DNA from: Sneathiellales bacterium
Lineage (GTDB): Bacteria > Pseudomonadota > Alphaproteobacteria > JANQFL01
Reading direction: 5' to 3'
Length of the DNA stretch: 54,239 nucleotides
Assembly: GCA_028277845.1 (NCBI GenBank)
Contig: JANQFL010000079.1
Coordinates: 1 to 54,239, forward strand
Shown: positions 33,358 through 53,794 of the stretch, piece after piece
How the letters are laid out: every line of letters begins with the position of its first letter
Numbering within the stretch: position 1 is the stretch's first letter
Made by a program: the position numbers and the translations under genes
The notes under the pieces: generated by a model
Told to the model about the DNA's origin: nothing
What the model saw: only the letters and a program-made list of their open reading frames with translations
The model's database searches: none

Positions 33358-33378
33358 GATATCGTTCTTGTTCCGCGG

Positions 33379-36781: not shown

Positions 36782-36784
36782 GGC

Positions 36785-37252
36785 TTAGTCCTCCACCCCG
36801 GAAATGACGATCGCCGGCCCCTTGGAATAGTTGTAGACGTGATAACCCAGGAACCGGACACGCCGCTCCACGGGCAGGTGCTTGCGGATCGCCTTGACCA
36901 TGCGGTCTTCCACATAGAGCGGGATGACCTTGCCCTGGTCGGTGGCGACGAACATACGGTGATTGACCACCGGCAGCGGCTCGACGTTCATCACGGACAA
37001 GGCCGTGTAGAGATACTTGACGGTGATTTTTTCGGGATGGCGCTTGATAGTGGCGCTGAAGCGCACGCCGCGGGGCGGCAGGATGGTTTTCGTGCCCGGT
37101 TTCATGGGCCGCTGCGTTTCGATGAAGCGGTCCAGGTTGACTTGCCGATAGTCCTCGCGCGCATCCTGTTGGGCGGGCGCCACCGCCCAGGGCAGCAGCA
37201 CGAGCAGCAACGCAAACAAAAGGACAAAACTGTTCATTCCGGTTTTTCTCAT
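36785..37252 (-). CDS. Exported protein in the pilin operon
   Basis: 155-residue protein with a signal sequence (MNSFVLLFALLLVLLPWAVAPA from the second Met). The mature part has about 125 residues with KTILPPRGVRFSATIKRH and YLYTALSVMNVEPLP, predicted beta-rich, and no cysteine. The first Met gives start 37252; a second in-frame ATG at 37237 is equally plausible. Packed between two prepilin genes (3 and 22 bp gaps), it is presumably a periplasmic part of the same machine. No family recognised. Confidence 0.6.
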   Translation of the reverse strand: MRKTGMNSFVLLFALLLVLLPWAVAPAQQDAREDYRQVNLDRFIETQRPMKPGTKTILPPRGVRFSATIKRHPEKITVKYLYTALSVMNVEPLPVVNHRMFVATDQGKVIPLYVEDRMVKAIRKHLPVERRVRFLGYHVYNYSKGPAIVISGVED

Positions 37253-37274
37253 GACAGACGCGGGACTCGGTTAA

Positions 37275-38051
37275 TCAGAAATTCAAAACGATGTCGTCGC
37301 CCCCTCCTCCGTCATATTCGCCGTCCGGTCCCAGGGAAACCAGGCACGGCACGGCACAGCCGACGACATTGCCGGGCGCGCCGGACGCAGGGTCGATGAA
37401 ATAGAGGTACGGCCGGCCGCGCAGTTCGACGTTTCTGGCGGACGTCGGCTCCTGCCAGACGAAGAACGCACCTTCGGGCCGGCGTTCGAACGGATCGGCG
37501 ATACCCGGCACCCGCCGGGCCGTGCCGTCCAACGGACTGGTGGTCTGATCGCCGTCGACGGAAAACCCGTCGCCGAACGTGACCGTGCCTTCGCCGAACG
37601 TGGTCAGATAGGGTCCGCGCCAGCCACGCCCGGTTTCGGTGTTCCAGGGCATGATCTCGGCGCTCGAGGCATTGATCGGTGCCTCGATCAACTGGGACAA
37701 ATTAGCCGGGGACTGGGGCGGTTCGGTGGCGCTGACAGGAACCTGGCCGCTGCCGCTGCCGGCCACGGCGAAGGGGCCGGTCTTGGGATAATAGCCCGTG
37801 TCCTGGCGGAAGCGTTCGACGGCAGCCGCCACCTGGCGGATTTCCGCATTGATCATGCGGGATTCGGCGACATCGTCGCTACCTCTGAAAACGGTCACGC
37901 CGATGACCACCAGCGATACGAGGACCGACAACGTGACCAGCAATTCCAGCAGCGTGAAACCACGGCAATCGCGGACAGGCACGTGGCACGGGACCGGGCG
38001 GTCCTTGTACGACGTCAAGCCGTTCTGGTTGGAATTCGGTCGCACGGTCAT
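37275..38051 (-). CDS. GspG-like prepilin
   Basis: 258-residue type IV prepilin. The cleavage site is Gly31/Phe32 in CRGFTLLELLVTLSVLVSLV with Glu5. The body has the major-pseudopilin pattern: ETGRGWRGPYLTTFG, then PYLYFIDPASG and a C-terminal LVSLGPDGEYDGGGGDDIVL, the Ca-binding-like acidic loop of GspG. A long Ser/Pro-rich insert makes it larger than usual (~140 residues). TTG then ATG occur in tandem; I use the ATG at 38051. Confidence 0.82.
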   Translation of the reverse strand: MTVRPNSNQNGLTSYKDRPVPCHVPVRDCRGFTLLELLVTLSVLVSLVVIGVTVFRGSDDVAESRMINAEIRQVAAAVERFRQDTGYYPKTGPFAVAGSGSGQVPVSATEPPQSPANLSQLIEAPINASSAEIMPWNTETGRGWRGPYLTTFGEGTVTFGDGFSVDGDQTTSPLDGTARRVPGIADPFERRPEGAFFVWQEPTSARNVELRGRPYLYFIDPASGAPGNVVGCAVPCLVSLGPDGEYDGGGGDDIVLNF

Positions 38052-38176
38052 CAAACGGTCAAATCACTCAGAGTAAGGAAGGGCCGGCCCGGCTGCGAGA
38101 GCGCCCGGACCGGCCCAAGGGGAAGGATATGAATGCAAGGTGTGACGAGGCGCGCATTCATACCCATCGTGGAGAC

Positions 38177-39115
38177 TTAGATCGTGTTACGCGTACCGTC
38201 CCACTCACCCAGTTCTTCTTCCTTGGTGTCGCCGGCGCCATCGACGATGGCCTGCAGCAGCACCTGGTCGACAGGAACCGGCGTGGCCGTTCCGTCGGTC
38301 GTGGCAATGTGGAACAGAGCCAGGAAGCGGTTGTACTGGTCGTCACCGACATGACGGTAGACCGGAACCGTGGTCATGCCGCCCAGGTTGGCGACGTCGA
38401 ACAGGGTCGTGCTCGGGCCAAGGCCAACGACCATAAACAGCGGAACGTCAGCATCTGTATTCGTGAAGTCGGCAATGTCGATATCGTTGGTGGTTTCGAC
38501 ACCCGTGATACGCTCAGTGCCGCCGGTCCACACCATGATAGGTGCATTGATGTGATCAACCGGTGTAGCCGTCGAGAACACATAGTTCTCACCGCAGCCA
38601 TTTGCGGCGGGGCTGAGGTAAATATTGCCGGCCACGACGGCGTTGCCGCGACTATTGATCAGCCCCTGCATGTTGGAACAATCACCGTCACCGTCCGGAT
38701 TCAGTGTGGTGTTCGCGATACGCATATTTGTAATGCCGATGTCGCTCAACCGTTCCAGCATCACGTTAGAGAGATCTCCAGCGGTGGTTGCAGCTGGCGG
38801 CGTATATGGCTGCACATCCGCAGCTTCAAATCCAGCCCGAGTCAACGCAACGGGGGTGCCAGTGCCACCCCATTCGAGCAACGAGTCGTAATTGTTCGGA
38901 TAGGCGTTGTTGTTGAGCACGCGGAAGGTCCGGATACCCTTGTTGAGTTCGTCCATCATGGCCACGTGCGCGGCGGCCGAGGCGCGGGCGTCCGTGTCCT
39001 GGAGGGCGATGGTGGCCGTGCCGGCGACCGCGGCCAGGATGGCCACGACAACCAGCAGTTCAAGCAGGGTAAAACCCGCTTGACGGCGGCGACGCTGAAT
39101 TCTGCTGAACTTCAT
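38177..39115 (-). CDS. Prepilin, first gene of the operon
   Basis: 312-residue type IV prepilin with the cleanest leader: MKFSRIQRRRRQAG then FTLLELLVVVAILAAVAG with Glu5, cleavage after Gly14. The mature part has a helical spine, an early LNKGIRTFRVLNNNAYPNNYDSL segment, two Cys (DCSNMQGL, NGCGENY) likely to form a disulfide, and a long C-terminal domain. As the first and least embellished leader it may be the major subunit. Its 5' region (39121-39459) is long, suggesting a regulated promoter. Confidence 0.82.
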   Translation of the reverse strand: MKFSRIQRRRRQAGFTLLELLVVVAILAAVAGTATIALQDTDARASAAAHVAMMDELNKGIRTFRVLNNNAYPNNYDSLLEWGGTGTPVALTRAGFEAADVQPYTPPAATTAGDLSNVMLERLSDIGITNMRIANTTLNPDGDGDCSNMQGLINSRGNAVVAGNIYLSPAANGCGENYVFSTATPVDHINAPIMVWTGGTERITGVETTNDIDIADFTNTDADVPLFMVVGLGPSTTLFDVANLGGMTTVPVYRHVGDDQYNRFLALFHIATTDGTATPVPVDQVLLQAIVDGAGDTKEEELGEWDGTRNTI

Positions 39116-39120
39116 TGTTA

Positions 39121-39459
39121 ACTCCGTCAGATTTGGTTTTGAAAATTCCGTTGACGGATTCCACCCACAGGAACTCACCCAACGTGCCACCGCACCGCCC
39201 GGGCTTCTGCCCGCAACAACGCAACGGCGATGACTGCGCAGTTGGCTTGACGCCTCAAACCTGTCGAAACTGACTGCGCGACCGCACCGAAAGGCTTCTG
39301 CCCGCCCGATGCGGTATCTCGCGAAACCATCGTCCGGTCACCGTCCGCCGCGCCACCGTTCCTCACGAACGCCCCTCAGGCCCGACATCTTGTGGCTAAC
39401 CGTGATCGGTTTCAGCGACTGATAAACGCGTTACACTGTCTCCTTCCCGTTTCGCCGGC
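39121..39459. other. Leader region of the pilin operon
   Basis: 339 bp without a credible gene. It contains two copies of GGCTTCTGCCCGC in similar contexts (39210 and 39290 regions), one inside a short GC hairpin. The prepilin operon promoter probably lies here, but I could not place -35/-10 boxes or a Fur box in it. The nearest Fur-like site is upstream of the next small gene. Confidence 0.4.
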
Positions 39460-39678: not shown

Positions 39679-39844
39679 TGCCGCCACCTGTCGCGTTGCC
39701 GGCACGGTCGCGGTTCGACCGCCGAACCAACCGGGCCGGCAAACGACACCCCCATGCCCCACCGAACCGGCCGGCATCCGCATTGTTACGTCCTCGTGTC
39801 CCCATCGAACCGTGGCCCGAAAACGATCCTCTAAAACTGCAATT

Positions 39845-39863
39845 GCAAATCATTCTCATTATT
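39845..39863. promoter_or_regulatory. Fur-like box
   Basis: GCAAATCATTCTCATTATT; on the opposite strand it matches GATAATGATAATCATTATC at 14 of 19 positions (hand count). It sits between the end of the tgpA-like gene and the small gene at 39678, so it most likely controls that gene and possibly the pilin operon behind it. Confidence 0.6.
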
Positions 39864-39915: not shown

Positions 39916-42162
39916 TCATGCATGGCTCCGCCGCCCGAGACGCGACACACGGCGCACGGCGGTCCAGGCCGCCTCCACCGTCAATGCGTTCTCTCCCCTA
40001 CGTAATCCGTAACGCCGCGCGGCGTAGGCCCGCAGCACCGGTACGGCACCCCGGCCGATCTCCGACCGGTCTCCGAAGCGCTGGGTGACCCGTTCCGCCA
40101 GTTCAAGCGGACCCTCGGTGTCGGCCCGGACAAGTCCGGCTCGGGACAGGGCCAGACAAAGGCTTTCGAAGATGCGCCGCCACGGATCCCGGCGCCGTTC
40201 CGCCAGACGCCGCGCCACGGCCCGCCAGATCAACCAGGCCAGCCCGTAGACAGCGCCGATGGCCAGCAGCGTATAGCCCGCCAGCCGCATGAGTTTCTGC
40301 CAGTTGGTGGTGCCGCCGGACAGGGCCTGGTGCAGCGCCACCTGATTGTCGGCGTCATAGTCGACCACCCATTGGCGCCACAGCCGGTTCAGGAACGTCC
40401 ATGCCGGCTCCTGGCTGTCGTCCTTGACCTCCTCGTCGCCCACATGGGCATCCAGATTTTCGCTGTGGTCGACGAACCCGCCGGTGGGCGCCTGGGCGTC
40501 TTCGGGCTTGGCGGCGCTTTTCGGCTTGTCCTTCTCGTCGTCGCCGTCCTCGGCGCCGGCCTCGTCGTCCTCTTCCTCCGTCGACATGATGTCGAAGCCG
40601 CCACCCGCCCCCAGGGCCGGTCCCACATAGGGATCGGCGGGGTCGAAGCGGACCCAGCCGAAGCGCTCGGACCAGACCTCGGCCCAGACATAGGCGTTGT
40701 TCTCCATGACGATCAGGTTGTTGGTCAGCCCGACCTTGGTGCCGCCTCGATAGCCGGAAATCAGCCGCGCCGGCAGACCGGCGGCCCGCATCAGCAAAAC
40801 GAAGGCGCTGGCGAAGTGGCCGCTGTGGCCCTCCTTCGCATCGAACAGAAAACGGTCGTTGCGATGCGGACCATCGGGCAGTCTGGCCTGGGGATTGTAT
40901 TCGTACCCCTTGGCGACGTAATCGAGCGTCCGGTCGACCAGCGCCTGCCCCGTCCCCAACTCGGCCGCCCACGCCTCCGCCATCGCTCTGAGGCGCGGGT
41001 CCTGGCCGGGCGGCATGGTCAGGGCCAGGGCGCGGTCGGCCTCGGTCACCGACCGTCCGGCCTTGTATTCCAGGTAGGAACTGACGTTGTATTTCAGCGT
41101 TTCGCGCACCGGGTTCATGTTGACCAGTTGATAATCGCGGGTGACGAAGGCCGACGGCACAGACATCGCCGGAATATCGAGGGCGTAGAGCCAGTACGAA
41201 TTATGCGGCAGCACACGCACCATGTAGGCCGACAGGATGCCGGTTTCGATCAGGTCGCGTTCCAGCTTGACCCGGTTGAAGCGGCCCTTCATGCGCACGG
41301 AGCGCTTCTCCCAGCCTTCGCGGCCGTGCCACGACACGCCGTCATAGCGCCACAACACCGGCCCGCGCCAGTAGAGCTGATAACGCGGCGGCACGCCGTT
41401 GAAGAAGGGCTTGATGCCTTCGTGGAACGTCACCGCCATGACCCGGCTGTCGGACCCGCCCCGGCTGGCGATATCGCCGAGCGACAGGGTATCGGACAGG
41501 GCCGGTTGCTGTTTTTCCTCCGTGGTTTCGATCAACGTGGGCAGACCGAGCGCGAAACCGAGGTCGAACAGCGAGCCCGTGATGCGCGGGAAGAACACGA
41601 ACAAGGCGGCCATCAGCGGCAGGGACAGGGCCATCAGCGCGGCCGTGCGCTGCCACGACCGGCGGGTGCCGAGCCCGCCGCCGTGCAGGTCGATCAGCGC
41701 GGCGACGACCAGCGTCAGATGCACGATCAAGGCGATGGCGGCGATACCCGACTGGGTCTCCAGGGTGGCGTAGGCCATGATCACCAGGCCCAGCAGCAAC
41801 ACGACCTGGCAGTCGCGCACGGTGCGCGATTCCACCAGCTTGAGCCAGGCGCCGCAGACCAGGGCGGCCATGATGAAATCGCCGCTCGACCACGATAATG
41901 TCGCAACGATCACCGCTGCGGCCACAAGGCCGCCGGCCGCGACGAACGGCCAGCGCCGCCGGACCCGGCGGCGATGCAGGACCCAGGCCAGAACGGCCGC
42001 GGCCAAGGCATAGGCGGCGGTCCACAACGGCAAGGCGACGATCAGGGATGCCGAAGCCACCGCCAGCGCCAGCGCCGCGACGATCATCGGCCGCCCGCGC
42101 ACTGCACGCGGCGGCGTGCGGTTCATAAAATAGCGGGCGAACGGTATGGCGGCGGCGTTCAT
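39916..42162 (-). CDS. TgpA-like transglutaminase-fold membrane protein, predicted inactive
   Basis: 748-residue TgpA-family protein: N-terminal membrane domain of about six helices (residues ~25-190), a periplasmic region with the transglutaminase-like core (~400-515), an acidic linker (~525-600), a last transmembrane helix near residue 635 and a C-terminal DUF4129-like domain. In active relatives the core reads GFCEHFASAF and HAWAEVW. Here they are GHSGHFASAF, with Ser447 replacing Cys (AGC at 40822-40824), and YVWAEVW, with Tyr491 replacing His. Asp507 is kept. The fold is thus probably a binding scaffold. Third gene of the MoxR-DUF58-TgpA set. Confidence 0.85.
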   Translation of the reverse strand: MNAAAIPFARYFMNRTPPRAVRGRPMIVAALALAVASASLIVALPLWTAAYALAAAVLAWVLHRRRVRRRWPFVAAGGLVAAAVIVATLSWSSGDFIMAALVCGAWLKLVESRTVRDCQVVLLLGLVIMAYATLETQSGIAAIALIVHLTLVVAALIDLHGGGLGTRRSWQRTAALMALSLPLMAALFVFFPRITGSLFDLGFALGLPTLIETTEEKQQPALSDTLSLGDIASRGGSDSRVMAVTFHEGIKPFFNGVPPRYQLYWRGPVLWRYDGVSWHGREGWEKRSVRMKGRFNRVKLERDLIETGILSAYMVRVLPHNSYWLYALDIPAMSVPSAFVTRDYQLVNMNPVRETLKYNVSSYLEYKAGRSVTEADRALALTMPPGQDPRLRAMAEAWAAELGTGQALVDRTLDYVAKGYEYNPQARLPDGPHRNDRFLFDAKEGHSGHFASAFVLLMRAAGLPARLISGYRGGTKVGLTNNLIVMENNAYVWAEVWSERFGWVRFDPADPYVGPALGAGGGFDIMSTEEEDDEAGAEDGDDEKDKPKSAAKPEDAQAPTGGFVDHSENLDAHVGDEEVKDDSQEPAWTFLNRLWRQWVVDYDADNQVALHQALSGGTTNWQKLMRLAGYTLLAIGAVYGLAWLIWRAVARRLAERRRDPWRRIFESLCLALSRAGLVRADTEGPLELAERVTQRFGDRSEIGRGAVPVLRAYAARRYGLRRGENALTVEAAWTAVRRVSRLGRRSHA

Positions 42163-42171
42163 TTCGTCCGC

Positions 42172-43059
42172 TCACGCCTTGTGCAGGGCCAACGCCCGCA
42201 GGCACCGGTCGCGATGGCCGTCACCGGCGGCTGGCCCGATCTCATTGCCGGCGAGCCGCAGACCGAATTCACGGCCCTGCCGGCTGACCTCCAGCACCCA
42301 CTGGCACAATTGCGACACGGCCGGTTCGGCGCCCAGGCCGGAGACGCTACGCCAGTCGAGCATGAGCCGGTCTATTCCGGCGGCGCCGTCATAGATCCGG
42401 GTCACGAGGCGCGATGTGCGGGCGCTGGCCTTCCAATGGATGCGGTTGAGCGGATCCCCCGCCGCGTAGTCCCGCACGCCGTCGAAATCGTCGGGATCGC
42501 GCTGCAATCGGCGCCCGGCCATGTCTTCCGGCTGCGGCAAAGGCTGCGCGCCGTGCGGTTGAGGATAGACCAGGCACTCTGGATGTTGCGCACCGAAGCT
42601 GATGCGGACGCGGGCTTCGAACAGTCCCATGGGATAGCGGCTCGCCCCGACCACCGCCAGTAGACGCAGCATACCCCGCGCCGATGCCGCTACTTCAAAC
42701 GTTGCGGCGCTGCCGTGGCCCGGGGTGCCATCCACCGCTTCGACCGGGCCGGCGTCGGTTTCGACGTGGTGCACCGACAACCCCGCCACATCCCGCGCCT
42801 CGATGCCGAACACGGCGCCTTGCCCGACGAACACCGGCCGTCCCGACGTCACGGCAAACGATTCACCGGCCATGTTGCGCCACGCGGCGAAATATCCCAG
42901 CGCCAGAAGCGCGATCATCCAGAAGCAAAGCGCGAACGCCAGATTGCTGCTGTAGTGCACGGCGATGAGGAAAACGGCGAGGGCGGCAACGAAAAACGCG
43001 CCACCGAACCCGGTGGGGCGCACGCGGGGCCGTTTCGCCGTTCCCTCGATACCGGTCAT
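42172..43059 (-). CDS. DUF58-domain membrane protein
   Basis: 295-residue protein with two N-terminal transmembrane helices (~22-37 and ~43-58) and a C-terminal DUF58 domain whose hallmark is RRLQRDPDDFDGVRDYAAGDPLNRIHWKASART near residue 195. DUF58 proteins are vWA-like partners of MoxR AAA+ ATPases and usually sit next to a TgpA-type transglutaminase, exactly as here. Starts 5 bp after moxR and ends 10 bp before the tgpA-like gene, so the three form one unit. Their substrate is unknown. Confidence 0.87.
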   Translation of the reverse strand: MTGIEGTAKRPRVRPTGFGGAFFVAALAVFLIAVHYSSNLAFALCFWMIALLALGYFAAWRNMAGESFAVTSGRPVFVGQGAVFGIEARDVAGLSVHHVETDAGPVEAVDGTPGHGSAATFEVAASARGMLRLLAVVGASRYPMGLFEARVRISFGAQHPECLVYPQPHGAQPLPQPEDMAGRRLQRDPDDFDGVRDYAAGDPLNRIHWKASARTSRLVTRIYDGAAGIDRLMLDWRSVSGLGAEPAVSQLCQWVLEVSRQGREFGLRLAGNEIGPAAGDGHRDRCLRALALHKA

Positions 43060-43063
43060 AGCA

Positions 43064-44023
43064 CTACGGGATGGCGACGGTGTCGAGCACCAGACGCGCC
43101 GCGCCGTCCGCATCCAACCCGGGTTCGAGCGGCCGCAACCGGTGACCGGCGATGGCGCCGAACACCGCTTTGACGTGCTCGGGTACGACCGCGTCGTCGC
43201 CCTGCAACAACGCCCAGGCCTTGGCCACCGAAATCATCGCCAGGCCGGCCCGGACCGACAGCCCGGTTTCGAACTGGCCGGACTCCCGGGTATGGGCGAT
43301 GAGGTCCTGCACATAATCCAGCAATGCCGGCGTCACATGAACGGACCGAACCTGCGCCTGCACCCGTTCCAGCGCATCGGCGTCCAGTACCGCTGCGAGG
43401 CCACTCAGGGTCACCCGCCGGTCCTCGCCTTCGAGGACGTGGCGTTCGGCGGCCCGATCGGGGAAACCCAGATGCACGCGCACGAGGAAGCGGTCGAGTT
43501 GGGCTTCGGGCAGCGGGAATGTACCGAGCAACTGCGTGGGATTTTGTGTGGCGATGACGTAAAACGGCTGCGGCAAAGCGTGGCTTTCACCGTCGACGGT
43601 AACCTGCCGTTCTTCCATGGCCTCGAGCAACGCGCTTTGCGTCTTGGGTGTCGCCCGGTTGATTTCGTCCGCCAGCACCACCTGGGAAAAGACCGGCCCG
43701 GGATGAAACCGGAAGGCGCCGGCGGTCTGCTCGAAGATGGTGACGCCGGAGACATCGGAGGGCAGAAGGTCGCTGGTGAACTGGATACGCCGGTAATCGA
43801 GGCCGAAGGTCGCCGCCAGGGCGTGCGCCAGCGTCGTCTTGCCGACGCCGGGCAGGCCTTCGAGCAACAGGTGCCCGCCCGCCAGCATGCAGGCGACACT
43901 GAGGCGCACCGGCGTTTCCATGCCCACGACGACATCGTCCAACTGGGCGACGGCCCGGTCCAGCGTTCCTTTGCTGGACGCGGGCGTGTCGGTGGCAACG
44001 GCCTCGAGCGACGCTCCCGTCAT
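43064..44023 (-). CDS. MoxR-family AAA+ ATPase
   Basis: 319-residue MoxR AAA+ ATPase, a chaperone-like activator for vWA or DUF58 partners. Walker A LEGLPGVGKTTLAHALA, a QFTSDLLPSDVSG substrate loop, Walker B VVLADEINRATPKTQSALLEAMEERQVT, and sensor 1 ATQNPTQLLGTFPLPEAQLDRF are intact. ATG 44023 is used; the longer frame runs into DUF1111 antisense-like sequence. Follows the DUF1111 gene by 7 bp. Confidence 0.9.
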   Translation of the reverse strand: MTGASLEAVATDTPASSKGTLDRAVAQLDDVVVGMETPVRLSVACMLAGGHLLLEGLPGVGKTTLAHALAATFGLDYRRIQFTSDLLPSDVSGVTIFEQTAGAFRFHPGPVFSQVVLADEINRATPKTQSALLEAMEERQVTVDGESHALPQPFYVIATQNPTQLLGTFPLPEAQLDRFLVRVHLGFPDRAAERHVLEGEDRRVTLSGLAAVLDADALERVQAQVRSVHVTPALLDYVQDLIAHTRESGQFETGLSVRAGLAMISVAKAWALLQGDDAVVPEHVKAVFGAIAGHRLRPLEPGLDADGAARLVLDTVAIP

Positions 44024-44030
44024 GCCGGCC

Positions 44031-45536
44031 TCACAGCGACTTGAGGAAGGCGATGATGGCGTCGCGGTCGACCTTGGAGAACGTGCGGTACGCCTCCTTG
44101 GATTCCTCCGCCTCGCCGCCGTGCCACAGGATCGCTTCCTCCAGATTACGGGCGCGGCCGTCGTGCAGGAATTTGGTATGGCCGTTGACGGTTTCGACCA
44201 TGCCGATGCCCCACAGCGGCGCGGTGCGCCACTCACGCCCGTTGGCCGCGAAGCTGGGCCGGTCGTCCGCCAGACCCTCGCCCATGTCGTGCAGCAGCAA
44301 GTCCGTGAACGGTTGGATCGCCTGGCCGCGCAGACGGCGGCGCACATGGTCGTCACCGGTGACCACGTTGGTCTTGTGGCAGGACGCGCACCCGGCGTCG
44401 GCGAACAGCTTCTCGCCGCGCACCACGCGTTCATCATCCAGATGGCCGCGGGCCGGGACACTGAGGAACTCGAGATACGTGGTCATTTCCTCCAGCATCT
44501 TGTCCGACATTTCATAGCCGCCCTCGGCATCGCCGTGGAACGTGTTGACGCAGTCGGTTTGTTTCGGGCTACACGGCTGTGCCGGATGCAGGCGATTGGT
44601 CACCCCCATGTCGTTGACGGCGGCGCCGGCGGCCTGGTTCATCAGCGTCGCTTCTTCCGCCTTCCAGCCGAAACGGCCGATGGCCATGAATTTGGCGTCG
44701 TTGTCCCAGACCCGGTTGACCTTGCCGGAAATACCGTCGCCGTCGGCATCGTCCGGGTCGGCCCAGGCCAGCAGCGTATCGTCCGAGATCGCCTCCAACA
44801 GGCCCAGTCCGAAGATCGACGGCGCCCCGCGCGCCGACATCATGATGTCCTTGCCGAGCGGCCCGTAGTTCAGGTCGTTCAGAACCACCGTCGGTTTGCG
44901 CAAGGTATAGGGTGTGCCGTCCCCGAACGTGCCGGGCACGTCTTCGTAGCGGATTTCGACCGAGCCCTCCGGCATCACGCCGGCGCTGGCGACATCGCCG
45001 AACTGGCCGCCGTAAACCGGATGGGGATTGGGACCGCCTTGGGCGCCCTTGCCGGGCACGGACAGACGAACCAACAGGCTGCCGCCGGGCACCGGATCGG
45101 TGCGGCCGTCCGAGAAATGGCAGTCCTCGCAGGAGGTGCGGTTGTAATGCGGACCGAGACCGTCGTTGAACGATCCTTGAGTCGACGCCGTCGCTTCCTT
45201 GAACGGACGTTCGAAGTGGCCGTCGCCTTCGTCGAAGTCGCGCGACAATTGCCACGGCAGATTGGCCGCTTCCTCGGCGAAGCTGTTTTCGCCGAATTTG
45301 AAGTGGGTCAGATCGCCGCCGGCCAACGCGCGCGGATCCTGGCCCTCCAGATAGGCCAGTTCCTCCGGCCGGTCGCCATAGGCCGGCAGGTAATAGGCCT
45401 TGTAGGCGTAATAGGCCAAGGCGCCGATTGCGGCGACCAACGCCACCAACCCGGCTTTCAGAATGAACGAGCCCGACCCTTCGTTTCTCGGAGAGGTTCC
45501 GAACAACGGTGTATTCGCCAATTTCTGCAAGGACAT
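44031..45536 (-). CDS. DUF1111 di-heme c-type cytochrome, membrane anchored
   Basis: 501-residue protein of the DUF1111 ('di-haem oxidoreductase, putative peroxidase') family. An uncleaved-looking anchor (residues ~24-46) replaces the usual signal peptide. Two CxxCH motifs bind c-type heme: CEDCH near residue 136 and CASCH in the C-terminal third. FLHDGRARNLEEAILWHGGEAEES is the MauG/CcpA-like family signature. Relatives occur in Fur-controlled operons with imelysin-type proteins. Here it follows a lipoprotein and a secretin gene. The site of the reaction is periplasmic; the substrate is unknown. Confidence 0.85.
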   Translation of the reverse strand: MSLQKLANTPLFGTSPRNEGSGSFILKAGLVALVAAIGALAYYAYKAYYLPAYGDRPEELAYLEGQDPRALAGGDLTHFKFGENSFAEEAANLPWQLSRDFDEGDGHFERPFKEATASTQGSFNDGLGPHYNRTSCEDCHFSDGRTDPVPGGSLLVRLSVPGKGAQGGPNPHPVYGGQFGDVASAGVMPEGSVEIRYEDVPGTFGDGTPYTLRKPTVVLNDLNYGPLGKDIMMSARGAPSIFGLGLLEAISDDTLLAWADPDDADGDGISGKVNRVWDNDAKFMAIGRFGWKAEEATLMNQAAGAAVNDMGVTNRLHPAQPCSPKQTDCVNTFHGDAEGGYEMSDKMLEEMTTYLEFLSVPARGHLDDERVVRGEKLFADAGCASCHKTNVVTGDDHVRRRLRGQAIQPFTDLLLHDMGEGLADDRPSFAANGREWRTAPLWGIGMVETVNGHTKFLHDGRARNLEEAILWHGGEAEESKEAYRTFSKVDRDAIIAFLKSL

Positions 45537-45573
45537 ATCTAAAGATCCGTTTGCGTTGGTTGGAGGAACGGCC

Positions 45574-45813
45574 TCAACGGCCGGAGAGTGAAAACCGGAT
45601 ATTGAATCCCGACCGCCGGCCGTCACGGCCCGGCAAACGGGGACCCGAGAAGACGTACATGCTCAGGGTCTCCTCCGGAGCCGCACCCCCGGACATGGCC
45701 GGCGGCTGGAAGTCCGCCTTGCCGGGCAATGGTGGTTTGGTGCTGCCGGCCGCGCACCCCACGAGGGCGGTCAACACGAACGAAAAGACGACTGCACGGG
45801 TAATCTGTTTCAT
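45574..45813 (-). CDS. Small lipoprotein next to the secretin
   Basis: 79-residue lipoprotein: lipobox LTALVGC with Cys20, then a Pro-rich mature part of about 60 residues ending NIRFSLSGR. Residue +2 after Cys is Ala, compatible with outer-membrane sorting. Its ATG overlaps the secretin stop by 4 bp (45810-45813), as pilotins often do, but it is shorter than known pilotins. A pilotin-like role for the secretin is an inference from context. Confidence 0.65.
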   Translation of the reverse strand: MKQITRAVVFSFVLTALVGCAAGSTKPPLPGKADFQPPAMSGGAAPEETLSMYVFSGPRLPGRDGRRSGFNIRFSLSGR

Positions 45814-47999
45814 TTGAGCGTCCCCAACCGTTTGGCCGTGGCGTACTCCGGCGATTCGGCCAATGTCTCCAGGAAGGGTTGATCGGAAATGAGAAACGCC
45901 AGGCCGCGGTCGCCGGTTCGGCCATGCGCCGCCAGGCTCGGCCGGTCGAAGGTGATGGCCCGCCAGTTGCCGGCCACCCGACCGCCGTCGAGAACGAGAT
46001 TCTTGCCTGCCTTGTTCTTGATGACGACCGCCGTGACGTAATACGACCCGCGCCGCCACGAAGAATGGGGCGTGATCTCCAGGCTGCCGTCGGACGTGAG
46101 GAAGACCGGCGTGGTGATTTTCAGACGTGTCGGGATCATCGACCGGTCGACCGGCTTGCGGTCCTTCAGACTGTTGGCGGCAAACCGTGTCATGATGATG
46201 AAGTCTTCGACCGCGCCGCCCGCATCCAGGGCCGAGGGCGTGCGGTTCTTGCCGGCCTGAAACCCGCCCCGGTCGATTTCCGGGTTGTCCGAGGTGCTGC
46301 CCAAGCGCTGGCGGGACTTCTGCTCGCCTTCGGGGGCGGACGTGATGATGTGCGGGGTAATCAGCAGCACCAGTTCCGTCTTGCTTTCCTCATCGACCTT
46401 CTTGGTGAACAGCGTTCCAACGGCCGGAATGTCACCGAGCAGTGGAACCTTTTGAATGTCTTTGTTCTTTTTCTTCTTGATCAGGCCGCCGATGGCGACG
46501 GTCAGCCCATCCTGGGCGACAACAATACCGCTGATGTTGGAACTGGATACTGTATCAATGGTTTGCGTGACCAGGGTTCCCCCGGCGCCGGGCACCAGAA
46601 TGGTGGCGTTGTTTTCCTTCACCTCCGAACTGTCCTGGAAGATGCTCAGCGTCACCGTGCGATCACTGTTGATACGCGGCCGGATTTCCAGCGTCGTGCC
46701 GATTTCGCGCAATTCCTGTTCGATGGCATTGCCGGCCGTGGTCGTGTTGCCGTCGCTGACGATGGTGGTTTGCGAGCCGCTTCCCGTGACCACCGGCACT
46801 TCGTCGCCGATGAAGATGGTGGCGAGCTGGTTGTTGGCCGCCAGCAACATGGGCGTGGCCAGCACCTCGACCTTGTTGTCGCGTTCGAACAGTTCGAGCT
46901 GAATTTGCAGTTGTTCGTCCAGTATCTGGAACAGAAACTGGCCGCCCTGGAGGGCTTGATTGCCCAGGCTCAGCAACGTGCCCGGTCCGGTGATGTTGGA
47001 GCCGTTGTAGGTCACGGATTTGGTCTTGTCCGAATTCAACCCGATATTGAAAATCGAGCGGAAATCGTCACCCACCGTGAACTGCAGGATCTTCATTTCC
47101 AGCAGAACCTGCGTTAGCGGTTTATCGGCATCCTTGATGATGCGTGCGATATCCGCCATGGCCTCTTCATCCGCCGTGCGCACGAACAACTGGTTGTGCA
47201 TACGGTTCGTCGTAATGTAGATCGGTGGAACGTTGCGCGTAACGCGCGAGAGTTCCTGCACTGACACCGCTGGCAACGCATCGTCCTGTTCAGGCCTCAA
47301 TGCCGCAACCTGACCGGCCGTGAGGTCGCGTCCGTCAATCGAGATGACGGAATTTGAGGACGAGCCACTCCGTCCGCCGCCGCGCCGGTCACTCGACCGG
47401 CGACGGTCGCGGTCCCGCGATCGCCGGTCACGATCGTCAGTGCGCGAAGACGAAGATCTAGACGAACTGCTGCCGGATCGGCTGCTGCTGCCCCCTGCCC
47501 CCATATCCTCCAGGCCGTCTTCGTCTGCGTCTTCGGTCACCTCGACCCGGCCGGGATCGAACAGACCTTCGATGATGCGCGCCGCCGAAAGAACGTTCTG
47601 GTGCTGCAGCGTGAACACCCGGGTCTGATCGTTGCGGTAGACGACGATGTCCTGCTTGTATTCCTCCGCCGTCATCAACAGGTAGACACGGGTCTTGGAA
47701 TTGTAGCGGTACCAGAGACCGCTGACGCGGCATATGCCGTCGATGGCGTCACCCACCGTCGTATCGCGGATGAAAAGCGAAACTTCCTTCGCGCCGGCCG
47801 CCTTGGTGGCGACAATGTTGACGCCGGTCAGTTCGGACAGGACGCGGATGGCATTGATGACCCGGGCGTCCTTGAATTCGAGGGATTGGATCCGTTCGTT
47901 TTCGCCGGCGGCGATCGCGGTGTTCAGGGCTGCGGGTGCGAACACGATCAAGAAGGCGCAAATCCACACCATCATCGCCTGTCGCAACACCGTCCTCAT
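45810..47999 (-). CDS. PilQ/GspD-type secretin
   Basis: 729-residue outer-membrane secretin. Signal peptide (1-31), an N0/STN-like domain (~35-110), an N1-like segment, then a low-complexity Ser/Arg/Asp-rich linker at residues ~169-217, and N3/secretin domains: IYITTNRMHNQLFVRTADEEAM, then the secretin core (~370-552) with VEVLATPMLLAANNQLATIFIGDEVP and VPLLGDIPAVGTLF. About 177 residues follow the secretin core, an extension most secretins lack. The gene forms one unit with pilP upstream (16-bp gap) and the lipoprotein downstream. Confidence 0.9.
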   Translation of the reverse strand: MRTVLRQAMMVWICAFLIVFAPAALNTAIAAGENERIQSLEFKDARVINAIRVLSELTGVNIVATKAAGAKEVSLFIRDTTVGDAIDGICRVSGLWYRYNSKTRVYLLMTAEEYKQDIVVYRNDQTRVFTLQHQNVLSAARIIEGLFDPGRVEVTEDADEDGLEDMGAGGSSSRSGSSSSRSSSSRTDDRDRRSRDRDRRRSSDRRGGGRSGSSSNSVISIDGRDLTAGQVAALRPEQDDALPAVSVQELSRVTRNVPPIYITTNRMHNQLFVRTADEEAMADIARIIKDADKPLTQVLLEMKILQFTVGDDFRSIFNIGLNSDKTKSVTYNGSNITGPGTLLSLGNQALQGGQFLFQILDEQLQIQLELFERDNKVEVLATPMLLAANNQLATIFIGDEVPVVTGSGSQTTIVSDGNTTTAGNAIEQELREIGTTLEIRPRINSDRTVTLSIFQDSSEVKENNATILVPGAGGTLVTQTIDTVSSSNISGIVVAQDGLTVAIGGLIKKKKNKDIQKVPLLGDIPAVGTLFTKKVDEESKTELVLLITPHIITSAPEGEQKSRQRLGSTSDNPEIDRGGFQAGKNRTPSALDAGGAVEDFIIMTRFAANSLKDRKPVDRSMIPTRLKITTPVFLTSDGSLEITPHSSWRRGSYYVTAVVIKNKAGKNLVLDGGRVAGNWRAITFDRPSLAAHGRTGDRGLAFLISDQPFLETLAESPEYATAKRLGTLK

Positions 48000-48723: not shown

Positions 48724-48900
48724 ATTCCCGAATGACACTCTTCCCGACACTGTGTACGCCGCCCCTTTTCGGACGCATGTTTATTCGCGACCACGGGGCA
48801 GTGTTCATGGATCTCCCATGCGCCCACCGCACCGTTCGATCACCGGGTTCGCCGGCGCGACCACCGCGCCCGTACGACCCGTCGCTCATATTTTGCTAAT

Positions 48901-48919
48901 GAGAATGAATATCATTATT
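48901..48919. promoter_or_regulatory. Fur-like box upstream of pilP-secretin operon
   Basis: GAGAATGAATATCATTATT matches the Fur consensus at 15 of 19 positions (hand count) within a longer AT-rich run (48893-48922). The gap 48724-49056 holds nothing else recognisable. It faces pilP on the minus strand and probably controls the whole run down to the tgpA-like gene. Confidence 0.7.
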
Positions 48920-49056: not shown

Positions 49057-49995
49057 TCAACGCCAAACACTCAGGAACCACGTGGAATCCCTTAGAATTT
49101 CCGGGCCGAGGAACAGAAACAAGGCCCCGGCGAACAACAGGGGCGGCCCGAAAGGAATAGCCAAGGCGGACGCCGCGACCACTTCGGATTTACCCCCGGT
49201 TTCGGTCACCCGTGGCGGCACCGCGACAATGTGCCGCAACACCCCGATGACAATGCCGATCAGCGCGGCACACAGAACCAGGAACGGCAATTGGGTCCAA
49301 CCCACCCACGCGCCCAAGGCGGCGAGCAATTTGGCGTCTCCGCCGCCCAGTCCGTCGTAACCGCGCACCTTGGCATAGGCCCATCCCAGGGCCGCGAACA
49401 CCGCGTAGCCGGCGATCGCGCCGATGACGGCCGCACCGGGCTCGACGAACGCGGCAAAGCCGTTCGCCGCAAGGCCGAGCCACAGCAACAGATAGACGAC
49501 GGGATCGGGCAGCAACAGGCGGTCGATGTCGATTGCGGCCAGAGTCAATGCCAAGGCTACGAAGCCCCACATCCACAGGGTCTGTTCGGTGGCGCCGTAG
49601 CGAAACAAGGCCGCCGCAAACAGCAGTGCCGTCACAACTTCGATCAATGGATACACCAGCGAAATCGGCGTCCGGCAGGACTTACAGCGGCCCGATTGCA
49701 GCACGTAGCTGACCAGGGGGATATTTTCCAGGGCGGTCAATGAATGCCCGCAACCGGGGCAGCGCGACCGCGGGCTAATCAGGTTGATCTTTTCCGTGGC
49801 GGGCTTTTTTTTTGCGGCCTTCTTTGATTTGGCCGGCGGCAAATCGAGAAACTCCCGCGCCGCCGCGTCCCATTCCCGCTCCAGCATCAGCGGCAACCGG
49901 TGGATCACCACGTTGAGAAAGCTGCCGATGGCCAGGCCGAACACAATGACGAAGGCATAGACCGGGACCGGATAGGCCGTGACGAGTTCAACCAT
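49057..49995 (-). CDS. Prepilin peptidase (GspO/PilD type)
   Basis: 312-residue bifunctional membrane aspartic peptidase that cleaves prepilin leaders and methylates the new N-terminus. It has about eight helices and FGLAIGSFLNVVIHRLP near residue 20, a Lys-rich insert (~55-70), the four-Cys zinc site (CPGC ... CKSC) near residues 80-107, and both catalytic Asp motifs, AAIDIDRLLLPD and GLGGGDAKLLAALGAWVG. ATG at 49995 is preferred. Bounded by Fur-like boxes at 48901 and 50096. Confidence 0.92.
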   Translation of the reverse strand: MVELVTAYPVPVYAFVIVFGLAIGSFLNVVIHRLPLMLEREWDAAAREFLDLPPAKSKKAAKKKPATEKINLISPRSRCPGCGHSLTALENIPLVSYVLQSGRCKSCRTPISLVYPLIEVVTALLFAAALFRYGATEQTLWMWGFVALALTLAAIDIDRLLLPDPVVYLLLWLGLAANGFAAFVEPGAAVIGAIAGYAVFAALGWAYAKVRGYDGLGGGDAKLLAALGAWVGWTQLPFLVLCAALIGIVIGVLRHIVAVPPRVTETGGKSEVVAASALAIPFGPPLLFAGALFLFLGPEILRDSTWFLSVWR

Positions 49996-50095
49996 GAACC
50001 CTGACTCCGAATAACGCCTTCCACCGCTCAATAACGCCATATCGCGCGGCAATTGGACGCACAAAAAGCACTGGAAATGACAAGACGGTCACTCT

Positions 50096-50114
50096 AATAA
50101 TGCGTCTCATTCTT
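50096..50114. promoter_or_regulatory. Weak Fur-like box in a divergent promoter
   Basis: AATAATGCGTCTCATTCTT matches the Fur consensus at only 12 of 19 positions, but it lies in an AT-rich run that continues with TATTTGCAATTG to 50125 and resembles the sites at 39845 and 51072. It lies between the prepilin peptidase start (101 bp away) and the small membrane gene at 50135 (20 bp away). Confidence 0.45.
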
Positions 50115-50134
50115 ATTTGCAATTGTTGGATCCC

Positions 50135-50329
50135 ATGCAGACAGAAGTTCGCCCTTGGCACATCGTGATCGTGGTCGCCGTCATGGCTGCGCTCGGCTGG
50201 TTCGTTTGGCCGACGCCGTGGAATACCCAGACTTTCGAAAATCATACGGTTCGGCAGCACCGCTTTTCCGGAGAGGTGCAGATCAAGACGGACGACGGCT
50301 GGACCACACGGAATCAAATAAAGGACTGA
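50135..50329 (+). CDS. Small membrane protein behind a Fur-like box
   Basis: 64-residue protein: one transmembrane helix (WHIVIVVAVMAALGWFVW, residues ~8-25) and a polar C-terminal tail (TFENHTVRQHRFSGEVQIKTDD). It is the only plus-strand gene inside the 24-kb minus-strand cluster, and its ATG is 20 bp from a Fur-like site. The start of a possible TTG extension at 50117 would overlap that site. Possibly a small iron-stress membrane protein; no family recognised. Confidence 0.55.
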   Translation: MQTEVRPWHIVIVVAVMAALGWFVWPTPWNTQTFENHTVRQHRFSGEVQIKTDDGWTTRNQIKD

Positions 50330-50354
50330 TCGCAGCACCCGCTTCACCCGTTGT

Positions 50355-51056
50355 CTACCGTGCCGTCAGGCGCGGAAAAACCCGTCCCGTACGGGCGGCG
50401 TAATCGTCGTACACCTGCCCGAATTGCGCCCGCATCATCGCCTCTTCCTTCGGGATGCGGATCACCCACATGGCCAGAAACGCCGGCACCACCAAGGCGC
50501 CGCCGATCCAGTTCTGCAGCAGCAACGGCTGCGCCAGCACCGACAGCCAGATTGCGGCGTACATCGGATGGCGTATGGACCTATAGACTCCGTTGGTGAC
50601 CAAGCCGTGATCCACGCGCACTTCCAGTCCAGGGCTCCAGTTGCGCCCGAGATCGGCATGGGAGCGCCAGAACAGCCACAGGCACGGCACCTGGACGGCG
50701 GCGCCAATGGCCGTGGCCCAATTCGGCAACGTGTAGTCGGCGAAGGACAGGAACGGTGTCGCCAGATAAAACAGCGGCAGGACCATCATGGTCGCGAACA
50801 TTGCGGCCAGAACGATTCGTTCCGGCCGGTCGTTGCGGTCGTCGACGATGGTATTTTTCCGATAGGTCGCGGCGTGCGGCGCCCTGAGCATCGACATGAC
50901 GATGAACGCCGCGAACCAAACCCATTGCCCCCAGTGTATGGCGTGCCAGCGATAGGCGGCGGCCGCCGCCAGCCCTATCGCCAGCAACCAGATCAGCCTG
51001 GCCGGCCACCCTGACATCATGGGCTGCTGCGGCTTTTGTTCGGCGGTCTCGGACAT
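50355..51056 (-). CDS. Isoprenylcysteine carboxyl methyltransferase-like membrane protein
   Basis: 233-residue ICMT/PEMT-family membrane methyltransferase with about five helices. The SAM-binding region GLVTNGVYRSIRHPMYAAIWLSV and the C-terminal RIPKEEAMMRAQFGQVYDDYAART are diagnostic. Bacterial members methylate small lipids, quinone precursors or unknown substrates. The start at 51056 is only 15 bp from a strong Fur-like site at 51072-51090, suggesting tight iron regulation. It is the only membrane methyltransferase in the cluster; its substrate cannot be read from sequence. Confidence 0.82.
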   Translation of the reverse strand: MSETAEQKPQQPMMSGWPARLIWLLAIGLAAAAAYRWHAIHWGQWVWFAAFIVMSMLRAPHAATYRKNTIVDDRNDRPERIVLAAMFATMMVLPLFYLATPFLSFADYTLPNWATAIGAAVQVPCLWLFWRSHADLGRNWSPGLEVRVDHGLVTNGVYRSIRHPMYAAIWLSVLAQPLLLQNWIGGALVVPAFLAMWVIRIPKEEAMMRAQFGQVYDDYAARTGRVFPRLTAR

Positions 51057-51071
51057 CGGTATCCCTTATTT

Positions 51072-51090
51072 GCGAATGATTATCATTTGC
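51072..51090. promoter_or_regulatory. Fur-like box at the methyltransferase promoter
   Basis: GCGAATGATTATCATTTGC: a near-perfect palindrome around AATGATTATCATT (51075-51087), 14 of 19 matches to the Fur consensus by hand count. It ends 16 bp upstream of the methyltransferase start on the minus strand and shares its core with the Ni-SOD box at 3838. Confidence 0.7.
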
Positions 51091-51145
51091 ATAATAGACC
51101 GTCACCGGGTCCGCCACAAGTCCGGCGAGACGTTTCCCTGCCCGG

Positions 51146-51568
51146 TCAATAGGGCTGCCAGCCGACGACGTCGTCGTCGCTCTCGACGCCGTCCGGACCC
51201 AGCGAGAGGATATCGAAATAGGCGTTCAGGCCGGGAAACCGGTAGACATAATCCCGGCCCCAGGGGTCTTTCGGCAGGTAGGGCATACCGGACAGGATGC
51301 CGCCGTCGGCAAAGGCGGGATCGGCGACGGCGCCGAGCCCCTGTTCCGTCGTCGGCAGTTTTCCGGCTTCCGCCACATAACCGGTGAGCGCCGACCGGAT
51401 GGCGCGGATGTCGTCGCGGGCCTGTTTGACTCGGGCCTCTTCCGGTGACAGGGACTCCGGCAGCACCAGCGGAATCAGGGCGGCCGCCACCAGCATGACG
51501 GCGCCGACGAGAAACGGCTCCAATGTCAGCGGCTTTTTCTTTGCCGCTTCGTTTACAAGTTCGCTCAT
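51146..51568 (-). CDS. GspG-like pseudopilin without a prepilin cleavage site
   Basis: 140-residue protein with a clear GspG body: YLPKDPWGRDYVYRFPG and FDILSLGPDGVESDDDVVGW, including the acidic loop that binds calcium in GspG. The N-terminus is KKKPLTLEPFLVGAVMLVAA, which keeps the hydrophobic spine but has Pro instead of Gly(-1), Leu instead of Phe(+1), and Glu one position early. Prepilin peptidase should not cut it, so it may stay as a signal-anchored protein. It starts inside the end of the cytochrome gene (ATGA overlap, 51565-51568), so the two are coupled. Confidence 0.78.
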   Translation of the reverse strand: MSELVNEAAKKKPLTLEPFLVGAVMLVAAALIPLVLPESLSPEEARVKQARDDIRAIRSALTGYVAEAGKLPTTEQGLGAVADPAFADGGILSGMPYLPKDPWGRDYVYRFPGLNAYFDILSLGPDGVESDDDVVGWQPY

Positions 51569-53724
51569 TGCGACACCTCGGCCGGCGATACATTCAGAGC
51601 CGCTTGACCGCCCCGCGGCGACGGCACGGTGACCGTGGTTTCCTCCATCAGCACCGGCGGAATGATGGCGTGAAAGCCCGCGTCGAATTTGTCCCGGATG
51701 TTTTGCACGATGTCCTGCAGGGCCAGCCGGTACCAAAGGCGAACCTCGACGGTAAGGTCACCGTCCGGCGCCGCATCCGTCAGCGGAACGGTGTACGGAA
51801 TGCGGTCGGACTGGCCGGCCGGGATCGGCTTGCGAGTGTATTCCAGGCGGTCGACATCGAACAGAACATGGTTCCGGATGTGATTGCCGTCCTTGTCGTA
51901 TAGTATTTTCAGGTACTTCACGGCATCGGGATCCTCGTAGCCTTTCTCGCCGTCGAACCAGCCGCTGTGGAAGACCGTCTTGCCGGTGCTGTCGTTCACC
52001 TTGACTTCGAGCCACATATAGCGCTGATCCAGCGGCCCGGTGGGCAGGTGATGGCCGGCACCCGAGTTGGTGATCGTCACCGCCAGATCGAGGCTGTCAC
52101 CGTCTTTTCCCGGCCGCGCCTCGGCCTTCAGATCCGCGGCTTCCTGCAGCAACGCCAGGATCAGTTTCTGCTGGCGGCCGAGGTCCTCGAGCCATTCCTT
52201 CTTGGTCAGCAGCGTGTTGTGACCGGTCGGCGGGCCGCCGCGCAGGAAGGTCTGCGGCAAGGACGGATCGGTCAGCAGGTAGTTGTTGCCGACGAACCGG
52301 TGCGACACCACCCGCTCGGGCCGCTCGCCCTTCTTCAGCCGGGCGACATAGTCGGCCGGGTCGGGCGTCATGTGGCAGTTCTGGCACTGGATGCCTTCGC
52401 GGGCGTAGGACGTGCGGCGCCATTCGTCGTAGGTATCCTGCAGGTGCATGGCGCTTTGTCCGTTCACCTCCGGCGGCCGGATCTCGGTGTGGCAGGCACC
52501 GCACATGTCGGACGAGGCCATCATCGGGTTGGACGACACCGCCTGCATGGACCGGGCATGCTGCTGCGGCGCCGCCATGATCAGGGCCGGGTCGATGTGG
52601 CGGTCCAGTTCGTTGAGGGCCACGGTCAGGCCGCCGTTGCCGGCCAGCGGCCTGGCCTCGACCGCCGTATGGCACAGGATGCAGCTGGCGCCCTCTTCCA
52701 GGGCCTCGTTGGGGCCGACGCTGTTGATGGGCGAGCCCCCGCCCGCCAGGATGCCGAGCGGCTCATGGCACGAATCGCACCAGCGGATCTTTTCGGTCGC
52801 CGTGGCGCCGCCGGCGTGGCTGTCCAATTCATTCGTGATGATGGTCGATTCGTAGATCACGTCGGGACCGGTGACCGCGTGAATGGACGAGACCCATTCG
52901 CGGAATTCCTTCTTGTGGCATTCGCCGCAGACCTCGGCCGACGGCACCCGACGCCAATCGATAAGCTTGCCGTCCGTGGTTTTCCATTCCGCCGGGAAGT
53001 AGGGATCGTCGCCCCACGGCAACGAGTAGTAGGGCAGATCCTTGCCCGGCGCGAGGCCGGTCGAGCCCTGCTGCGGCAGGACGACGGTCAGCACCATGAC
53101 GGCCACGACCGATCCGGCGGCATAGTAACTCAGCCGTCGGCTTGCGCCGGGCATGCGGCTGCGGATGAGTCCGCTGGCCGCCATCGGAACGCGGCGCAGA
53201 TGGAACACCCAGAACACGGCGGTCAGGATGGACAGGATCAAATGGGCCCAGGACATGCCGGCATAGGCCGATTTGCCCGCCATCACGATGACGCCGGGAT
53301 ACCACAACAGAGCCGGGATAACGAACGCCACACCCGTCAGGTGCGCCGCCAGGGTGTGCCAGTGCAGGAGATGCCCGCTGAGCCGCTTGCCGAAGGATGA
53401 ACCGGAAGCGTCCTCGCCGCCGCCGAACAATCGGAAGGGAAACAGGAAGCCGAGTACCGACCCCTCGGTCTCGCGCAGGTGGACAATGACGTAGAACAGG
53501 TACAGGACCAGTGACAGACCGCCGGCCACCAGATGCACCACCAGGACCACCTGGAACGCCGGCCAGTTCCATTCCGCCGGGGCCCAGGCCAGCCAGCCCC
53601 CCGACCCAAATGCCAGCCCCAGCATGGCGATGAAAGACCCCGCCAGCGTCCGGCGATGGTCCCCCTGCCGCCGCCGATCTTTGACGGCAGCATTTTTTCC
53701 ACCGCCAGCCTCTGCCGAACTCAC
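51565..53724 (-). CDS. Five-heme c-type cytochrome with an N-terminal His-rich membrane domain
   Basis: 719-residue protein. Residues ~27-218 form about five transmembrane helices with His64, His82, His118, His121, His123, His128, His161 and His175, a spacing that would suit b-type hemes or quinol contact. The periplasmic part (~225-500) carries five CxxCH motifs: CGECH (266-270), CDSCH (316-320), CILCH (348-352), CGACH (408-412) and CQNCH (447-451), as in cytochrome c554-like multiheme proteins. A C-terminal ~200-residue beta domain follows (GAGHHLPTGPLDQRYMWLEVKV). Such a fusion could pass electrons from the quinone pool to a periplasmic or surface acceptor. The exact family name is uncertain. 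Confidence 0.82.
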   Translation of the reverse strand: MSSAEAGGGKNAAVKDRRRQGDHRRTLAGSFIAMLGLAFGSGGWLAWAPAEWNWPAFQVVLVVHLVAGGLSLVLYLFYVIVHLRETEGSVLGFLFPFRLFGGGEDASGSSFGKRLSGHLLHWHTLAAHLTGVAFVIPALLWYPGVIVMAGKSAYAGMSWAHLILSILTAVFWVFHLRRVPMAASGLIRSRMPGASRRLSYYAAGSVVAVMVLTVVLPQQGSTGLAPGKDLPYYSLPWGDDPYFPAEWKTTDGKLIDWRRVPSAEVCGECHKKEFREWVSSIHAVTGPDVIYESTIITNELDSHAGGATATEKIRWCDSCHEPLGILAGGGSPINSVGPNEALEEGASCILCHTAVEARPLAGNGGLTVALNELDRHIDPALIMAAPQQHARSMQAVSSNPMMASSDMCGACHTEIRPPEVNGQSAMHLQDTYDEWRRTSYAREGIQCQNCHMTPDPADYVARLKKGERPERVVSHRFVGNNYLLTDPSLPQTFLRGGPPTGHNTLLTKKEWLEDLGRQQKLILALLQEAADLKAEARPGKDGDSLDLAVTITNSGAGHHLPTGPLDQRYMWLEVKVNDSTGKTVFHSGWFDGEKGYEDPDAVKYLKILYDKDGNHIRNHVLFDVDRLEYTRKPIPAGQSDRIPYTVPLTDAAPDGDLTVEVRLWYRLALQDIVQNIRDKFDAGFHAIIPPVLMEETTVTVPSPRGGQAALNVSPAEVSQ

Positions 53725-53775
53725 GTCTGATTCCCCTGTTAAGCCGAGTTTTTTTGTCGATCATCTATTAGTATT

Positions 53776-53794
53776 AATAATCATTCGCATTATC
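53776..53794. promoter_or_regulatory. Fur-like box upstream of the multiheme cytochrome
   Basis: AATAATCATTCGCATTATC; read on the minus strand it begins GATAATG and matches the Fur consensus at 15 of 19 positions. It lies 51 bp upstream of the cytochrome start, a promoter-like distance, and about 90 bp upstream of the broken plus-strand gene. Confidence 0.65.

Follow-up and report, generated by a model that had tools for sequence, protein, structure and literature searches.

The 54,239-nucleotide window analyzed here, a stretch of contig JANQFL010000079.1 from a Sneathiellales bacterium, encodes a protein in which a predicted di-heme b-type membrane domain and a pentaheme c-type cytochrome are joined within a single polypeptide. 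This b2c5 protein probably serves iron acquisition as a membrane-spanning electron-transfer arm. Its close relatives are encoded as two separate genes, most of them beside or near genes for the iron permease FTR1 and often imelysin, whereas the fused gene resides in a type II secretion-like cluster carrying Fur-box-like sites. The features of this cluster are compiled in Table 1.

Table 1. Coordinates of the cytochrome gene, the neighboring genes of its cluster, and the Fur-box-like sites (window positions).
Feature	Position	Strand	Remarks
Fused b/c cytochrome gene	51565..53724	-	719 aa; GTG start, TGA stop
Membrane stretch with H64, H82, H161, H175	53200..53535	-	Invariant in alignments A2, A3, A6, A7
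Periplasmic stretch with five CxxCH and distal His 282, 389, 475, 558, 619	51868..52929	-	Invariant columns of alignment A8; Pfam
GspG-like pseudopilin	51146..51593 (start approximate)	-	Overlaps cytochrome 3' end; PF08334 E 7.9e-21
ICMT-family membrane methyltransferase	50355..51056	-	NF040696 230.5 bits vs cut-off 160
Prepilin peptidase (A24)	49057..50064	-	
Secretin (GspD-like)	45810..47999	-	PF00263 1.3e-40
DHOR diheme oxidoreductase (DUF1111 type)	44031..45626	-	PF06537 6.2e-92
MoxR AAA ATPase, DUF58, TgpA-like transglutaminase genes	39916..44030	-	Relatives in Rhodocyclaceae and Azoarcus clusters
Rest of type II secretion-like cluster: pseudopilins, GspE and GspF relatives	29463..39190	-	
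Fur-box-like site	53773..53794		~50 bp upstream of cytochrome start; 15/19; derived pattern, 2 mismatches
Fur-box-like site	51069..51093		Upstream of ICMT-like gene
Fur-box-like site	48895..48919		16/19; upstream of 48016-48750 gene and secretin gene
Fur-box-like site	39842..39863		14/19; upstream of pseudopilin genes

The cytochrome start codon is preceded by a Shine-Dalgarno-like AGGGGA, and third-position GC remains between 0.75 and 0.95 along the whole length of the open reading frame, the b/c junction included. The gene is single-copy in its 5.39-Mb genome, which is 98.5% complete, and lies 515 bases from the contig end upstream of it. From its N-terminus, the protein consists of a membrane domain (residues ~8-178) with four predicted helices (8-47, 54-85, 111-141, and 151-178), a linker helix (193-215), a pentaheme region (~260-480), and an Ig-like beta domain (~527-707), while the charge pattern points to a cytoplasmic N-terminus and a periplasmic c-type domain. 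CxxCH motifs occur at residues 266, 316, 348, 408, and 447, whereas residue-shuffled copies average 0.005 and never exceed 1. The initial annotation had described five such motifs behind about five transmembrane helices, and this holds, with four core helices plus the linker helix and five motifs counted. Among Pfam families, Cytochrome_C7 and Cytochrome_C554 both score above cut-off in the periplasmic part and none does so for the membrane domain.

One of the key features of the membrane domain is its content of histidines (64, 82, 118, 121, 123, 128, 161, and 175). At least eight had originally been proposed as capable of b-heme ligation; all eight are indeed present, but only H64, H82, H161, and H175 are conserved and the other four are not kept. 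In an alignment of ten orthologs from three phyla (20-31% identity), the invariant positions are G42, H64, G68, H82, G131, P137, H161, and H175, and the same four histidines are retained in distant fused homologs of 25-27% identity. The spacing of the histidine pairs on helices 2 and 4 is near-fixed as well. The conservation of four of the eight histidines supports a prediction of two b hemes, not more, with H64, H82, H161, and H175 as the likely bis-His ligands. Given the N-in topology with the c-type domain outside, as indicated by the charge distribution, H64 would pair with H161 on the periplasmic side and H82 with H175 on the cytoplasmic side.

The membrane domain was modeled as a four-helix bundle with core pLDDT values mostly of 84-93. 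Its best solved structural matches are HyaC (Z 13.6), CybB (12.4), b6 (10.6), and FdnI (9.9). Z-scores of this size are reachable by chance for helical bundles, and the weight is therefore placed on the matches being heme-binding and on the conserved histidines. The histidines of HyaC and FdnI are arranged on helices 1, 2, and 4, unlike those of the window domain. STEAP and Dcytb, which are ferric reductases, are also among the structural neighbors. The original b-heme proposal was vulnerable to a match with a non-redox family or to histidines incapable of binding heme; the best structures are instead diheme b cytochromes, and the model, a diheme-cytochrome-like bundle with invariant paired histidines, is consistent with heme binding.

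Classification of this domain is less straightforward. The NrfH/NapC family, an early candidate, did not hold up, as PF03264 reached 17.3 bits versus a cut-off of 24.1 over 39 profile positions, and NrfH membership was likewise rejected (TIGR03153, 16 vs 134.2), both being weak partial matches. Cytochrome b561 (PF01292) yields no match above the gathering cut-off for the window domain and matches orthologs only, the best being 7.5e-10 in 1 of 11, while Ni_hydr_CYTB is matched weakly by orthologs. For DUF4405 (PF14358, gathering cut-off 26.7 bits), neither the window domain nor the rest of its genome gives a match, whereas the Nitratiruptor ortholog scores 31.9 and the Shinella ortholog 23.7. 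As the window domain falls below the cut-off, it is called DUF4405-related here rather than a member. Heme b binding has been demonstrated for a DUF4405 protein (PMC11334425). Profile-profile comparison of the membrane alignment with DUF4405 loci gave little (23 columns); comparison with a mixed set of b561-type and other matches from the DUF4405 search gave P 1.2e-4 over 163 columns, which is supportive, although the set is heterogeneous. Separately, a search of the membrane-alignment profile against solved structures returned only a transporter and chlorophyll-binding proteins, all at E values of 0.025 or higher, which were judged to be chance matches. When the fused protein was aligned jointly with the two separate partners (A4), helices 3-4 were mis-scattered, and this alignment was left out of the modeling.

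In the periplasmic part, an alignment of eleven sequences (24-55% identity to the window protein) contains exactly five invariant histidines outside the CxxCH motifs, namely 282, 389, 475, 558, and 619. These five distal histidines match five bis-His c hemes, which suggests a role in electron transfer rather than catalysis. The C-terminal beta domain, which had been left without an assigned role, now has a relative in the penta-heme c552 of Thermochromatium tepidum (5ze8), with a profile E of 6e-10, a Foldseek value of 3.7e-13, and Z 13.3 over 164 residues. Since this domain holds H558 and H619, two of the five invariant distal histidines, its role is likely to supply heme ligands. Five CxxCH motifs and, after them, an Ig-like beta domain similar in sequence to 5ze8 place the protein with the c552/PHC group, although the ExtKL model NF040886 is not reached (48.9 bits vs cut-off 250) and the pentaheme core was modeled with low confidence (pLDDT < 50). 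PMC11976967 describes similar Ig-like domains in the pentaheme ExtKL family and discusses multiheme proteins of the pentaheme family for extracellular electron transfer, and its reference list includes the c552 paper, whose title calls that protein low-potential.

Close relatives (48-58% identity in the c-type part) occur in Anaerolineae, Rhodocyclaceae, Azoarcus, and a few further sampled genomes, with more distant ones on Shinella and Nitratiruptor plasmids, whereas no ortholog was found among 385 genomes of the window's own class. In all twelve relatives whose flanks were read, the membrane protein and the cytochrome are encoded by adjacent, mostly overlapping separate genes; a thirteenth, from a second Shinella lacking annotation (L080), was read for the cytochrome only. 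The window protein belongs to a five-member clade tied to type II secretion-like genes (support 99/100), which is nested among FTR1-linked members. Based upon the split relatives and this nested position, the fusion is therefore derived. Four distant homologs (25-27% identity, four genomes) are fused in the same b-then-c order, from which it follows that the joined form is viable. In genome G580 (L073 ~10128-10134), the membrane and cytochrome genes share one frame with a TAA stop alone between them, an arrangement that is a plausible one-step route to fusion. In one fused homolog (L077:5675-8584), the pentaheme part is followed by an additional TPR-like region at the C-terminus. At L070, L071, L076, and L082, spanning several phyla, the neighbors of FG-GAP/UnbV_ASPIC (CRTAC1-type) genes encode distant b/pentaheme c fusions or TPR relatives of these. 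CRTAC1-like genes, not iron genes, adjoin three of the four distant fused homologs, so the fold can also serve other purposes.

Of the 9 orthologs whose flanks are intact, 8 have an FTR1 permease beside or near the b-c pair, G348 being the exception, and imelysin often accompanies it. The gene order is FTR1, imelysin, membrane protein, cytochrome in Chloroflexota and imelysin, DUF4405 protein, cytochrome, FTR1 in Shinella; in neither group did the FTR1 operons show another oxidase. In Nitratiruptor, the order is transcriptional repressor, ferritin, imelysin, membrane protein, cytochrome, FTR1, flavodoxin, and this entire iron island is borne on a 27-kb plasmid (L081). A small plasmid of this kind is a possible vehicle of spread between phyla. 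FTR1 is separated from the pair by a few genes in Rhodocyclaceae and Azoarcus, where MoxR, DUF58, TgpA, and GspG-like genes also occur. No FTR1 was found in the G348 genome, in the four genomes with distant fused homologs, or in the 98.5% complete window genome, where the idea of a copy elsewhere received no support from a genome search, though the contig breaks off 515 bases upstream of the cytochrome gene. Accordingly, the partner in the branch of the window protein and G348 is not the permease.

A type II secretion-like cluster recurs with the cytochrome at L022, L024, and L069 as well as in the window (39916-51736), all within the single clade, with the GspG-like gene just after the cytochrome and mostly with MoxR, DUF58, and TgpA. 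At the former three loci, at most one gene separates the c gene from the GspG-like gene behind it. The window secretin has an unusual architecture, ending (residues ~600-720) in a match to DUF3438/TIGR03749 of integrative conjugative elements. A second contig of the same genome (C45) holds imelysin and DHOR genes. No DHOR gene was found in 5 of the 6 searched genomes of close relatives.

Five site clusters in the window match the Fur consensus at 14/19 or better, four of them in intergenic gaps of the cytochrome cluster, compared with 0.2 expected across the whole window from order-3 Markov sequence at this threshold and 0 at >=15/19. When the derived pattern was searched genome-wide, 5 of ~12 distinct places fell within this 1% of the genome and a reversed control gave 1, a count that leans towards the window sites because the pattern was derived partly from them. 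A further Fur-box-like site lies upstream of the cupredoxin/imelysin/DHOR genes on C45. No site at >=14/19 was found in the Rhodocyclaceae, Azoarcus, and G348 clusters (L022, L024, and L069), and several sites at 15/19 in the Nitratiruptor locus, which is AT-rich, are not counted as evidence. Iron control of the window cluster is a prediction from these motifs. Neither the sites nor the iron-related surroundings figured in the initial annotation. Elsewhere in the window (3829-3856), a strong 16/19 site precedes a 138-aa ORF and the gene for a nickel-containing superoxide dismutase (2793-3293), an enzyme that may therefore also be under iron control.

Several inferences can be made regarding the function of the b2c5 arm. 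Two bis-His b hemes stacked across the membrane would shuttle electrons between the quinone pool and a set of five periplasmic bis-His c hemes, the quinone link being presumed. As both ligands appear to be present for all seven hemes, the protein appears to be a wire rather than an enzyme. With relatives beside FTR1 and imelysin and Fur-box-like sites in the window, the redox partner would be iron on its way through the periplasm into the cell. Fe(II) oxidation falls to the peroxidase EfeB in Efe systems and to Fet3 in yeast. That FTR1 transport depends upon this oxidation has been described for Ftr1p, and the same is assumed of the bacterial homologs (PMC9174327, PMC11966278). The need of FTR1 for Fe(II) oxidation, together with an arm standing in place of the Efe peroxidase, favors flow from iron to quinone, and for the FTR1-linked relatives we lean, tentatively, towards an arm that accepts the electron from Fe(II) oxidation at the EfeB/Fet3 place. 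The opposite direction is favored by a window genome lacking FTR1 and by the low-potential character of c552, and the partner in this host may be the DHOR protein or ferric iron. A bolder and more speculative version, which we consider possible without expecting it, is that FTR1 is driven by a b2c5 wire to the quinone pool replacing the peroxidase or copper oxidase, thus permitting oxygen-independent ferroxidation, and that the window branch rebuilt this wire as a fused protein within an iron-regulated type II secretion-like cluster.

Certainly, other explanations are conceivable. Electrons could run outward, from quinol through the b hemes and c hemes to ferric iron or its chelates in the periplasm or outside, with Fe(II) then imported; in the window host, the secretion-like apparatus would serve to position or export an additional component. 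Such a scheme accords with a host that lacks FTR1 and thus requires no ferroxidation step, with the ferric reductases STEAP and Dcytb among the structural neighbors, with the low-potential label in the title of the c552 paper (as listed in the references of PMC11976967), and with a membrane potential that should favor outward electron movement, yet we regard it as less likely, as the relatives' pair sits with FTR1, a class dependent on Fe(II) oxidation, in Chloroflexota and Shinella operons where no other oxidase accompanies it. It is rather improbable that the protein is instead a respiratory arm for DHOR, or a route of extracellular electron transfer via the secretion-like cluster, with a link to iron that is regulatory only. 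DHOR and secretion genes do share its cluster, the five secretion-linked members form the strongly supported clade described above, and proteins of the same family are discussed for extracellular electron transfer in PMC11976967; against this, DHOR is missing from most of the searched genomes of close relatives and the deeper branches of the tree lie in FTR1/imelysin operons without secretion genes.

Two further possibilities concern the protein itself. The membrane histidines might bind a non-heme ligand, such as a metal ion in transport, the domain then being only an anchor for the cytochrome. The window domain does lack a Pfam match above cut-off and the histidine pairing is derived from topology, but two near-fixed pairs on helices 2 and 4, a bundle like those of diheme cytochromes, and an ortholog within DUF4405, a family for which heme b has been shown (PMC11334425), make this very unlikely. 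The least probable explanation of all is that two genes are really present and were joined by an error of assembly or sequencing. Although only a single assembly is available for the window and close relatives are uniformly split, the reading frame runs uninterrupted with third-position GC of the coding type along all of it, and the homologs in four other genomes are fused in the same order. An arm serving iron acquisition remains the favored reading.

The component families are known, but neither the b-c pair with FTR1 and imelysin nor its single-chain form in a putatively iron-regulated secretion-like cluster was found in the open-access literature searched. Likewise, that literature on FTR1 with multiheme cytochromes, imelysin, or DUF4405 does not describe the operon, subscription papers lying outside the search. 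In Chloroflexota, Pseudomonadota, and Campylobacterota, the conserved b-c pair of the FTR1 operons is a candidate electron partner of bacterial FTR1 transport, a matter of particular interest where the permease has no peroxidase or copper oxidase beside it, and culturable strains, such as those of Shinella, would allow a direct test. For biochemistry, the fused window protein offers a single polypeptide. In addition, DUF4405 cytochromes, whose partners are known mainly from flavinylated systems, are now linked to multiheme c cytochromes.

Several known systems are comparable to the b2c5 protein and its neighborhood. DUF4405 proteins and the related ferrosome protein FezC (PMC11334425) likewise carry four conserved histidines in a transmembrane bundle, but their published partners are flavinylated proteins, whereas that of the window domain is a pentaheme c cytochrome. 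The b561-type membrane subunits HyaC and CybB provide the best structural likeness, at ~10% identity, without a fused c-type domain. Conversely, c552 (5ze8) and PHC/ExtKL share the five CxxCH motifs and the beta domain with its HxxPTG-type motif with the window protein, but descriptions of them mention no attached di-heme b membrane domain. EfeUOB-type transporters combine FTR1 with an M75 imelysin, as do the operons of the b-c-pair relatives; EfeB was not seen in the latter, which hold a transmembrane b/multiheme c pair. FTR1 is thus encoded alongside the pair in the relatives, as in an EfeUOB-type system, whereas the window genome departs from this pattern in having the fused cytochrome and no permease.
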